Source of the DNA: Rhodospirillales bacterium
Lineage (GTDB): Bacteria > Pseudomonadota > Alphaproteobacteria > ATCC43930 > CGMCC-115725
Direction: 5' to 3'
Length of the DNA stretch: 36,794 bases
NCBI GenBank assembly: GCA_027315365.1
Contig: DAHUYF010000094.1
Location: forward strand, 1-36,794
In this document: in pieces, positions 30,232-32,771 of the stretch
How positions within the stretch are numbered: the stretch's first letter is position 1
Layout: every line of letters begins with the position of its first letter
Notes under the pieces: model-generated
Told to the model about the DNA's origin: nothing
What the model saw: only the letters and a program-made list of their open reading frames with translations
The model's database searches: none
Program-made: the position numbers and the translations under genes

Positions 30232-30695
30232 TGGACATCGCCGACCTGCTTCAGCCCAACGGCGTCATTGCCAATCTGCGCGCCGCCAACAAGCGCCAGG
30301 CGCTGCAGGAGCTGGCCAAGCGCGCCGCCCAGCTCGCCGCCAGGCCCGAGCGCGCCGTGCTCGACGTGCTGCTGGAGCGCGAGCGGCTGGGCACGACCGG
30401 CATCGGCCGCGGCACGGCCATCCCGCATGGCCGCATGCCCGACCTGCCGCAGATTTACGCGCTGTTTGCCCGGCTGGAGAAGCCGATCGATTTCGAGGCG
30501 ATCGACAACCAGCCGGTGGACCTGATTTTCCTGCTGCTGACCCCGGCCAATTCGGGGGCGGATCATCTGAAGGCGCTGGCGCGCCTGTCGCGCCTGCTGC
30601 GCGACAAGGCGATCTGCGAGAAGCTGCGCGGCACCGACCGCGCCGACGCGCTCTACGCGCTGCTCACCGACCGCGCCGCCAGCCACGCCGCCTGA
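30231..30695 (+). CDS. ptsN: PTS IIA-like nitrogen regulatory protein PtsN
   Basis: The 154-residue protein is EIIA-Ntr. His66 in TAIPHGR is the phosphorylated residue, GIGRGTAIPHGRMP is the family signature, and DHLKALARLSRLLRD is the conserved C-terminal helix. It receives phosphate from PtsP/NPr (not in the window) and regulates nitrogen, carbon and potassium responses through protein contacts. It is coupled to hpf by a one-base stop/start overlap. This is the last gene of the rpoN unit; a repeat-rich spacer follows. Confidence 0.96.
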   Translation: MDIADLLQPNGVIANLRAANKRQALQELAKRAAQLAARPERAVLDVLLERERLGTTGIGRGTAIPHGRMPDLPQIYALFARLEKPIDFEAIDNQPVDLIFLLLTPANSGADHLKALARLSRLLRDKAICEKLRGTDRADALYALLTDRAASHAA

Positions 30696-30722
30696 GCGGC
30701 CCCCTATATCTAGTCGCCGGCA

Positions 30723-30744
30723 CCGAGTCGGGCGCGGGACGTTC
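30723..30744 (+). repeat. 22-base direct repeat, copy 1
   Basis: This copy starts CCGAGTCGGGCG and ends GGGACGTTC, and is repeated without change at 30826-30847, 103 bases downstream. It lies 28 bases after the ptsN stop. Function unknown. Confidence 0.75.
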
Positions 30745-30825
30745 CGCGATTCGGCCAAGATGCTGTGGCCGACCACGGTCCGAAGCGCGGAAATCCGTGA
30801 AAAAATCAAGATGTGGTAGGGCTGT

Positions 30826-30847
30826 CCGAGTCGGGCGCGGGACGTTC
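30826..30847 (+). repeat. 22-base direct repeat, copy 2
   Basis: An exact copy of 30723-30744. The 81 bases between copies contain CGGAAATCCG followed by TGAAAAAA, a string nearly repeated at 31869-31885. Confidence 0.75.
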
Positions 30848-30868
30848 GGGGAACCCGGACCAGATACA

Positions 30869-30965
30869 GGGGGGCACGTCGTCGCCCCCCGCCTCATCCT
30901 CCCGCCGCGCAGGAGCCGCTTTCGCGGCTCTCTCCCTCTCCGGCCCCGGGGGGGGGCGGAGAGGG
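30869..30965. repeat. Cluster of three hairpins after ptsN
   Basis: Three inverted repeats are packed here. GGGGGGC/GCCCCCC (30869-30890) has an 8-base loop. GAGCCGC/GCGGCTC (30913-30930) has loop TTTC. CCCTCTCCG/CGGAGAGGG (30934-30942 and 30957-30965) encloses a G-run. The last, with the following GGCCGGGGTGAGGGG, is like a palindromic element common between genes of GC-rich proteobacteria. One or more may end transcription of rpoN-hpf-ptsN and of the DUF1150 gene coming from the other side. With the direct repeats these fill the 289-base gap 30696-30984, in which I see no gene. Confidence 0.55.
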
Positions 30966-30984
30966 CCGGGGTGAGGGGGGCGAG

Positions 30985-31203
30985 CTAATGCACGCTGACC
31001 GGCTCCAGCTCATGCTGGCGGACGGTGGCGAAGGCTACCTCGCGGTCCGGCAGCAACGCCACCGGCGTGCCGTCGGCGGCATGGACGGCAAATCCGACGA
31101 CGCCATCGCTGCCGGCCACTCGCTTGATGTAGGCCAGGTCCTGCATGCCGAGCAGGGCGAATTCCTTGGCGGTGATGGAGCGCAACTTCTCGATCTGGTT
31201 CAT
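30985..31203 (-). CDS. DUF1150 family small protein
   Basis: The 72-residue protein matches the alphaproteobacterial DUF1150 family: EFALLGMQDLAYIKRV, FAVHAADGTPVALLPDR and FATVRQHELEPVSVH at the C-terminus. The role is unknown; the family is commonly encoded beside small heat-shock proteins, as here (75 bases after hsp20 on the same strand), so a heat-shock-linked role is an inference from context. AGGTGA precedes the ATG by five bases. Confidence 0.88.
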   Translation of the reverse strand: MNQIEKLRSITAKEFALLGMQDLAYIKRVAGSDGVVGFAVHAADGTPVALLPDREVAFATVRQHELEPVSVH

Positions 31204-31278
31204 GATCTCACCTTTCGCGGCGCGCCCGGACCGGGCATGGCGCCGTCCTTGTCCTGCTCCTCCCTGGTTTCCGGTCGT

Positions 31279-31740
31279 TCAGGCCGGGTCCTTGCCTGCG
31301 GTCCGCTCGACCGCCTGGCGCATCGGCTTGCCCATATTGCGGATCTCGACCGTGCGCACCGTCGGTTCGATGACGCGGCGGACGAGGTCGATGTTCAGCA
31401 GCCCGTTATCGAGCGAGGCGCCGGCCACCTCGATACCGTCGGCGAGCACGAAGGAGCGCTGAAACTGGCGGGCGGCGATGCCGCGATGGAGATAGACGCG
31501 ATCCTTGTCGTCGACCTGGCGCCCGCGCACGACGAGCTGGTTGTCCTCGACCTGGACGCTGAGCTCGGCCATGGCGAAGCCGGCGACCGCCAGCGTGATG
31601 CGCAGGCTGTTCTCGCCGGTCTGCTCGACGTTATAGGGGGGATAGCCGTCGGCGCCGGCCTTGTTGACGCGGTCGAGCGCCCGCTCGAAATGATCGAAGC
31701 CCAGCAGCAGCGGCGAATTGAACAGCGACAGACGCGACAT
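31279..31740 (-). CDS. Hsp20 family small heat-shock protein (IbpA-like)
   Basis: The 153-residue protein has a short N-terminal arm (MSRLSLFNSPLLLGFDHFERALDR) as in IbpA/HspA class A proteins. An alpha-crystallin domain follows (about 35-130): YNVEQTGENSLRITLAVAGF, VVRGRQ, YLHRGIAARQFQRSFVLADGI and GLLNIDLVRRV, where G-L-L-N-I is the conserved motif. It holds unfolding proteins in an ATP-independent way. GAGGAGG stands four bases before ATG 31740; the upstream leader appears able to hide this SD in a hairpin. An earlier in-frame start at 31788 would read through that leader and is less likely. Confidence 0.95.
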   Translation of the reverse strand: MSRLSLFNSPLLLGFDHFERALDRVNKAGADGYPPYNVEQTGENSLRITLAVAGFAMAELSVQVEDNQLVVRGRQVDDKDRVYLHRGIAARQFQRSFVLADGIEVAGASLDNGLLNIDLVRRVIEPTVRTVEIRNMGKPMRQAVERTAGKDPA

Positions 31741-31819
31741 CTGACCTCCTCGAGCGAGCGAGTCCAGCGGGCCCGAAACGGCGCCCAAGCAATCCCGGCG
31801 ATCCCCACGGCATCGCCGG
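31741..31819 (-). promoter_or_regulatory. ROSE-like RNA thermometer in the hsp20 leader
   Basis: Read on the minus strand, GACUCGCUC (31756-31764) faces GAGGAGGUC (31743-31751) across a GCUC loop. Seven of nine positions pair, with one C-A and one G-G mismatch, so the SD is weakly masked two bases before the AUG. UCGCU, the UYGCU-type motif of ROSE elements, lies opposite the SD. An 8-base hairpin (31795-31819) opens the leader. A G-G mismatch in the SD stem is a known ROSE feature. Confidence 0.55.
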
Positions 31820-31825
31820 AACTAG

Positions 31826-31854
31826 ATGTGGGGTGCGGGGAAGCGGCCATCAAG
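31826..31854 (-). promoter_or_regulatory. RpoH (sigma-32) type promoter of hsp20
   Basis: On the minus strand CTTGATG (31848-31854), 14 bases, then CCCCACAT (31826-31833) match the heat-shock consensus CTTGAAA / CCCCATNT closely. The predicted start near 31819 coincides with the first leader hairpin. Confidence 0.65.
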
Positions 31855-31910
31855 CCCCGCGGAAAGCCCGGAAATCCGCGAAAAAGCCCGGCATCGGGGC
31901 GGATCGCCGG

Positions 31911-31939
31911 TTGACGTCGGTTTGGCGGCGCACCTATTC
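31911..31939 (+). promoter_or_regulatory. Candidate promoter of the PEBP gene
   Basis: TTGACG (31911-31916), 17 bases, then CTATTC (31934-31939) fit the alphaproteobacterial housekeeping pattern. The leader would be about 77 bases. Just upstream, CGGAAATCCG with CGAAAAA (31869-31885) repeats a string also found at 30788-30805. Confidence 0.5.
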
Positions 31940-32022
31940 TTCGCCCACTGGGCGCGGGCCCCGGCACGGCACATTGCCAAGCGGCGACTGTCCCAGCGAC
32001 GCCACTCGGGAGGGAAAAAAGC

Positions 32023-32586
32023 ATGATCTGGAAAATGGCGACCATGGCCGCGGGCCTGGCGCTCGGTCTCTGCGTCAGCGGTGCGGCGAGCGCGCTGACC
32101 CTGAGCAGCCCCGACGTCAAGAACCACGGGACCGTCCCGGACGAACAGGTGTTCAACAGCTTCAGCTGCACCGGCAAGAACGTCTCGCCGGCGCTGAGCT
32201 GGAAGGGCGCGCCGGCCGGCACCAAGAGCTTCGCCGTCACCGTCTATGATCCCGACGCGCCGACCGGCAGCGGCTTCTGGCACTGGGTGGTGTTCAACAT
32301 CCCGGCCAGCGCCACCGGCCTGCCCAAGAATGCCGGCGATGCGAAGGCCAATCTGATGCCGCCCGGCGCGGTGCAGAGCCGCACCGATTACGGCTTCGCC
32401 GGCTGGGGCGGTCCCTGTCCGCCCAAGGGCGACAAGCCGCACCACTACATCTTCACCGTCTTCGCGGTCGACGTCGATCATATCGACGCCGACGCCAACA
32501 CTTCAGCCGCGGTGGTGGGATTCAACCTCCACTTCCACACCCTGGCCAAGGCCAAGATCGTCGCCACCTACGGCCGGCCGAAGTAA
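32023..32586 (+). CDS. Secreted YbhB/YbcL (PEBP) family protein
   Basis: The 187-residue protein has a Sec signal peptide (about 1-24, TMAAGLALGLCVSGAASA) and a phosphatidylethanolamine-binding-protein fold. FSCTGKNVSPALSWKGAP, FAVTVYDPDAPTGSGFWHWVVFNIP with the DPDxP and HW anion-pocket residues, and HHYIFTVFAVD are diagnostic. Bacterial members bind small anionic ligands; their cellular role is largely unknown. GGAGG lies about nine bases before the ATG. It is divergent from hsp20 and has its own promoter candidate and a strong hairpin at its end. Confidence 0.92.
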   Translation: MIWKMATMAAGLALGLCVSGAASALTLSSPDVKNHGTVPDEQVFNSFSCTGKNVSPALSWKGAPAGTKSFAVTVYDPDAPTGSGFWHWVVFNIPASATGLPKNAGDAKANLMPPGAVQSRTDYGFAGWGGPCPPKGDKPHHYIFTVFAVDVDHIDADANTSAAVVGFNLHFHTLAKAKIVATYGRPK

Positions 32587-32603
32587 GACCGGCTCGAGAA
32601 ACG

Positions 32604-32637
32604 CCAAGGGCCTAGCCGTCGCCGGCTAGGCCCTTGG
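32604..32637. terminator. Strong hairpin shared by the PEBP gene and tRNA-Ala
   Basis: CCAAGGGCCTAGCC (32604-32617) and GGCTAGGCCCTTGG (32624-32637) form a perfect 14-base stem with a 6-base loop. It lies 17 bases after the PEBP stop and six bases beyond the 3' end of the opposing tRNA-Ala, so it may stop transcription from both sides. There is no T tract. Confidence 0.7.
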
Positions 32638-32643
32638 TCGAAC

Positions 32644-32719
32644 TGGTGGAGCCAGGCGGGTTCGAACCGCCGACCTCCGCAATGCCATTGCGGCGCTCTC
32701 CCAACTGAGCTATGACCCC
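32644..32719 (-). tRNA. tRNA-Ala (GGC)
   Basis: The 76-base gene folds with acceptor GGGGTCA/TGGCTCC (one G-T pair) and encoded ACCA. The D arm is GCTCAGTTGGGAGAGC, and the anticodon stem CCGCA/TGCGG has loop ATGGCAT, with GGC at 32684-32686. The T arm is GGCGG TTCGAAC CCGCC. It reads GCC/GCU alanine codons. Confidence 0.97.
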
Positions 32720-32771
32720 AGAAGGCCGCGGCGCGCAGTTTAGCGCGATGCCGCGCGGCGCGGGAGCGGGA

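Follow-up and report, generated by a model that had tools for sequence, protein, structure and literature searches.

We analyzed a stretch of 36,794 nucleotides from a Rhodospirillales bacterium, referred to here as the window. On its minus strand lies a gene for a small heat-shock protein of the alpha-crystallin family, hsp20 (31279..31740), which matched PF00011 with 60.2 bits against a cut-off of 20.8 (E 2.2e-16). A DUF1150 gene (30985..31203, minus strand; PF06620, 64.4 bits against a cut-off of 25, E 1e-17) follows downstream after a gap of 75 nt. In 59 of 64 loci a DUF1150 gene likewise follows hsp20 on its strand, the two matched stretches lying 20 to 278 nt apart; in the other 5 no DUF1150 was detected downstream of hsp20. 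The common strand, the 75-nt gap and the recurring gene order fit a shared transcript; hsp20 and DUF1150 are probably transcribed together, and control of DUF1150 through the hsp20 transcript is plausible. A PEBP-family gene (PF01161, 32023..32586) is divergent from hsp20 and shares its intergenic region, in which a sigma-70-like site, TTGACG-N18-TATTCT at 31911..31940, belongs to this divergent gene.

Upstream of hsp20, sequence and conservation identified an RpoH-like -35 element, CTTGATG (31848..31854, minus strand), and an RpoH-like -10 element, CCCCACAT (31826..31833, minus strand). The two are separated by 14 nt and the promoter-like site spans 31854..31826, which makes a transcription start near 31819 reasonable. 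The E. coli sigma-32 consensus is given as CTTGAA-N(13-18)-CNCCATAT (PMC3669281), and the -10 element CCCCACAT deviates from it. A CTTG..-10 pattern, drafted after the sequences had been inspected, was present in 57 of 65 dereplicated leaders compared to 2.4% of dinucleotide shuffles. Two RpoH paralogues of the genome, at C59 81833..82642 and C148 4297..5112, score 366 and 334.3 bits, above the curated cut-off of 323.1; a third RpoH match fell below it.

With a start near 31819, the leader would be about 79 nt long and contain three hairpins, all on the minus strand. Hairpin I, CCGGCGAU..AUCGCCGG (31795..31819, -17.6 kcal/mol), has a bulged G and 8 outer pairs. Hairpin II, GGGC[G]CCG-UUU-CGGGCCC (31769..31786, -9.8 kcal/mol), also has a bulged G. 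Hairpin III, CUGGACUC[G]CUC-GCUC-GAGGAGGUCAG (31741..31767, -9.4 kcal/mol), is the presumed thermosensor and holds both the Shine-Dalgarno (SD) sequence GAGGAGG (31745..31751, minus strand) and a UCGCU anti-SD (31761..31757, minus strand). Within it, GAGGAG of the SD pairs with CUC[G]CUC (31762..31756), leaving a single bulged G at 31759, and UCGCU lies opposite AGGA of the SD, which is the ROSE core with one bulged G. In the NMR structure of a ROSE element, the corresponding G reportedly pairs with an SD base.

An earlier, sequence-only reading of the window had proposed a heat-shock promoter firing near 31819, a leader of roughly 79 bases opening with an 8-base hairpin, and a last, imperfect hairpin that pairs the GAGGAGG SD and has a UCGCU motif. 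The RpoH-like elements and their counterparts in 57 of 65 leaders agree with the first of these, the start itself being placed from the spacing, and hairpins I (31819..31795) and III correspond to the other two; hairpin II was absent from its list. That reading also described a G-G mismatch in the SD hairpin. Under canonical pairing it becomes a single bulged G at 31759.

Fold energy is weak evidence for the modelled leader structure. Hairpin I folded better than its shuffles (z -3.39, with 0 of 200 folding equally well), while 13 of 200 shuffles equalled hairpin II (z -1.73), 24 of 200 equalled the whole leader (z -1.15), and hairpin III alone was no better than shuffled sequence (z -0.53, 50 of 200). 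That the leader is more than a chance structure is argued by conservation and covariation, not by energy.

We gathered hsp20 loci from a set of 61 genomes, made up of the window's own and 60 relatives, kept the best 30, and added the best 80 of 360 named contigs. The 111 upstream regions were dereplicated to 65 leaders, which include those of Azospirillum, Inquilinus and Thalassobaculum as well as of uncultured relatives. Gene starts were chosen by an SD rule, so the presence of an SD in these leaders is not independent evidence. A UYGCU motif within 45 nt of the start was found in 60 of the 65, compared to 8.7% of dinucleotide shuffles. Fifty-six leaders were aligned (alignment A1); the nine omitted by eye (L068, L085, L095, L098, L101, L105, L108, L111 and L112) were left out mostly for longer spacers between hairpins, and the start of L098 is doubtful. 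Loci of the same alphaproteobacterial type were also present in records titled Mycobacterium sp. KBS0706 (L096), Planctomycetota MAG (L112) and Rhizobium sp. Q54 (L068); record titles or bins may be wrong, as the L096 leader groups with Inquilinus leaders.

RNAalifold returned just 7 pairs on A1. We therefore counted pairs on A1 against a three-helix structure written by hand with the window's leader and one of Azospirillum as guides, a procedure that favours those two sequences. By this count 78.8% of cells were paired, compared to 73.1% in shuffled and at most 54.5% in slid alignments; the covariation score was 0.231 versus 0.147 and at most 0.121, and 129 cells were changed on both sides versus 66.9 and at most 94, with 0 of 500 shuffles reaching any of the three values. 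Counted by pair, both-side changes in A1 did not exceed those of shuffles (16 versus 14.2, 73 of 500). Helix 1 (hairpin I) had 67.6% of its cells paired and both-side changes in 7 of 8 pairs, helix 2 (hairpin II) 91.8% and 5 of 7, and helix 3 (hairpin III) 77.9%. The core of hairpin III gives no covariation, since its six pairs hardly vary.

The outer stem of the SD helix was examined by a swap test, in which each leader's own flanks were compared with flanks exchanged between leaders; 64 of the 65 leaders could be anchored, by a pattern that requires the G. Own flanks paired better, at -7.8 kcal/mol versus -5.9 when swapped (z -5.8, 64 leaders), as they did in two other sets, one of the window's family (30 leaders, z -4.2) and one with distinct flanks (28 leaders, z -3.8). 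None of 5000 permutations equalled the result in any of the three sets. For the window's leader alone the test was uninformative, with 19 of 63 foreign partners pairing better.

We built a covariance model, R1, from the 56 leaders, window included. In the window's own genome R1 gave the window 68.4 bits and the next of 18 matches 23.2 bits; none of the seven next-best loci of that genome showed this hsp20. At E≤0.01 R1 produced 43 matches in 41 of 289 genomes of the class. Thirty of the 43 matches were fetched (L117 and L125-L153), at least four of which were training loci (L117, L125, L127 and L129), and in all 30 no more than 15 nt separated the hsp20 start from the match's 3' end. Among the 61 genomes of the relatives' set, 38 had an R1 match at E≤0.01, many of them having supplied training sequences. 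The window's family accounted for matches in 32 of its 37 genomes, and the five without one (G002, G015, G027, G031 and G032) had no strong orthologue of this hsp20. For a stricter model, R2, we took 25 leaders that are more distant and excluded the genomes of the window's family among the 61, with the family of the named contigs otherwise taken as is; in its alignment (A3) the SD or anti-SD columns were shifted in several rows. Genome-wide, R2 gave one clear match, the window's leader (50.2 bits, E 5.4e-7), followed by one at 21.4 bits (E 0.57). It also recovered every one of 29 additional leaders (L006-L034), all at E≤0.03, plus one chance match.

The Rfam families gave a different picture. 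At gathering score, Rfam found no ROSE in the window and two tRNAs only, and at E≤10 no ROSE was listed on 2.2 kb. The covariance-model search with the Rfam ROSE model that the sequence-only reading had proposed as a check gave, by Rfam alone, one half of the two-part outcome that would count against that reading: on a 136-base stretch RF00435 (ROSE) aligned from end to end, but scored 15.5 bits versus a gathering score of 45 (E 2.6). For RF02523 (ROSE_3, gathering score 43), no match was listed at the window's leader; among 61 relatives, the family did appear before the orthologous hsp20 in 5, at 18.0 to 30.8 bits, and in none did it reach 43. When a first set of 20 loci, 3 of them other hsp20 genes of the window's own genome, was searched at E≤1, the orthologous leader drew a ROSE family in 2 of the 17 relatives' loci; in another set this was so in 1 of 20. 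RF00435 exceeded its cut-off in 1 of the 289 genomes of the class. The low Rfam score is not decisive against a ROSE-like leader, because the relatives' leaders also lie below the cut-off and the models built from leaders single out the window.

R1 overlapped 10 of 12 distinct RF00435 loci, with E values of 6e-4 to 0.85 in 40 kb and 6 of 12 at E≤0.01, and had no match at the RF00435 loci L155 and L163. The 3' ends of the two models agreed in 7 of 12, and the register was off by tens of bases in L154, L158 and L161. The window-type leaders and RF00435 ROSE thus look related yet separable. Like the rhizobial hspA type that RF00435 describes, the window has a small heat-shock gene leader, a UYGCU anti-SD with a G facing the SD, and a bulged G in the first hairpin, as in the RF00435 consensus. 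It differs in its shorter SD hairpin, in having UCGCU rather than UUGCU, and in a bulged G in hairpin II too. A second hsp20 of the same genome (L115 1501..1599, contig C137 41484..41582) has a classical ROSE leader, UUGCUC..GGAGGAU, scoring 42.9 bits with RF00435 versus 45, so two ROSE types coexist in this genome. A weaker Hsp20-family match (L004 1107..1361, contig C70) has an in-frame TAG within the matched stretch.

The literature uses 'ROSE-like' more broadly than Rfam, for leaders of small heat-shock genes in which U(U/C)GCU blocks the SD in a 3'-proximal hairpin; as these sources describe the class, more than 40 elements are predicted in alpha- and gammaproteobacteria (PMC3669281; PMC4166951), with two to four hairpins, the last one holding the SD (PMC3669281). 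The window shows UCGCU against the SD, in the 5' UTR of a small heat-shock gene (PF00011), and three predicted hairpins with the SD in the last. By sequence and predicted structure it fits the literature definition, and it fails the Rfam cut-offs; together with the leader-built models, these features bear out the ROSE-like leader that had been proposed before hsp20. ROSE-like leaders are described in S. meliloti (PMC2873474), and ROSE elements together with RpoH dependence are reported for the same small heat-shock operons of M. loti and S. meliloti (PMC3989490). The short ROSE-like elements of Pseudomonas ibpA resemble the window in their short SD hairpin with U(U/C)GCU, and their sigma-32 promoter and their upstream hairpin, which stays folded on heating, have counterparts in the window's RpoH-like site and upstream hairpins; they differ in being gammaproteobacterial, with two hairpins and demonstrated function, while the window has three and a predicted function (PMC3669281). 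A ROSE kind has already been reported near Rhodospirillales, since an RF00435 leader is predicted before the Hsp20 gene of Gluconobacter oxydans, likewise an alphaproteobacterial small heat-shock gene (PMC5756330). That element, which we liken to the window by its description and not by sequence, was found by Rfam, unlike the window's (PMC5756330). Searches of open-licence PMC papers for ROSE or RNA thermometers in Azospirillum or Rhodospirillales turned up few candidates; in passages of one, PMC10434288, the terms occurred in the reference list only.

Of the readings considered, an RpoH-type promoter followed by a leader that sequesters the SD in a ROSE-like way has the strongest support from these predictions, and we give a probability of about 85% to RpoH transcription combined with melting of hairpin III before hsp20 as the explanation of the locus. 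The leader is a candidate ROSE-like thermometer with a putative heat response and belongs to a divergent subfamily of Rhodospirillales-type bacteria, and the analysis supports the sequence-only reading in substance, as a predicted thermometer under an RpoH-type promoter. RpoH would transcribe hsp20, and probably DUF1150 as well, from about 31819. At low temperature, the SD would be bound up in hairpin III, imperfectly paired with the UCGCU anti-SD and out of reach of ribosomes. At heat-shock temperature, hairpin III would open while hairpins I and II remain folded, and Hsp20 would be made, so that ROSE-like translational control would be added onto heat-shock transcription. Two features should make hairpin III heat-labile, the bulged G and the weak pairs beneath.

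We modelled opening of the leader with ViennaRNA. In the window's leader, the unpaired probability of the SD went from 0.245 at 25°C to 0.190 at 42°C, i.e., no opening, and that of the start codon rose from 0.09 to 0.47. Over 64 leaders the mean for the SD moved from 0.165 to 0.185 between the same temperatures. Three RF00435-type leaders also showed only slight SD opening (0.237 to 0.301, 0.199 to 0.295 and 0.193 to 0.228), so the computation has little power.

This flat modelled melting would also suit a reading in which the conserved structured 5' UTR had a main role other than temperature sensing, for example in mRNA stability or as the target of a protein that recognises the bulged-G hairpins and controls translation. 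Hairpins I and II are as strongly conserved as III and share its bulged-G module, which fits such a role. On the other hand, the UYGCU anti-SD carries its bulged G opposite the SD, as in ROSE elements (PMC3669281), and a small heat-shock gene followed all 30 fetched R1 matches, and we regard this explanation as improbable. The off-consensus -10 element CCCCACAT could mean that RpoH does not use the promoter-like site and that hsp20 is transcribed by a housekeeping sigma factor or from a different start, with the leader alone conferring heat control. The CTTG..-10 pattern stands at a similar place in most leaders and in few shuffles, and a sigma-70 scan of 30600..32760 returned a single site, on the strand opposite to hsp20; we regard this alternative, too, as improbable. 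Finally, that heat control is wholly transcriptional and the hairpins are by-products of GC-rich sequence would suit the unremarkable energy z-scores of the whole leader and hairpin III, but is very improbable given the conservation, covariation and model specificity.

Under the preferred reading, a promoter of RpoH type with a thermosensing hairpin III, repeated bulged-G hairpins are the one unusual feature of the predicted subfamily. In ROSE elements, the bulged-G module forms the heat-sensitive core of the hairpin that holds the SD. We defined the module post hoc as a bulged G beside C-G pairs, 5'-YGC/GR-3'. All 56 leaders of A1 have a bulged G with both flanking pairs in hairpin II; 50 have it in hairpin III and, as aligned, 25 in hairpin I, which is poorly aligned. 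The module is present in all three hairpins in 21 of the 56. A free scan of 64 leaders counted a mean of 2.36 bulged-G hairpins per leader, compared to 0.50 in shuffles. It is conceivable, though we think it rather unlikely, that with the same module in all three the upstream hairpins act as further sensors or docking elements and not as inert stabilisers. If so, the leader would respond more steeply to temperature, or would also bind a ligand or protein. The repetition raises a testable question.

The distribution of these leaders indicates that ROSE-like control of the hsp20-DUF1150 unit is, by prediction, widespread in Rhodospirillales-type alphaproteobacteria. The Rfam cut-offs miss such leaders, with ROSE_3 reaching its cut-off in 0 of 61 genomes and RF00435 in 1 of 289, versus 38 of 61 (with training overlap) and 41 of 289 for R1. 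The leader alignment and structure could seed a missing RNA family. Waldminghaus et al. 2005 reportedly listed more than 40 ROSE-type candidates, which may include relatives of these leaders. Elsewhere at the locus, an inverted repeat whose 15-bp arms match perfectly around a 4-base loop, and which lacks a T run, lies at 32604..32637, between the PEBP-family gene and tRNA-Ala(GGC).
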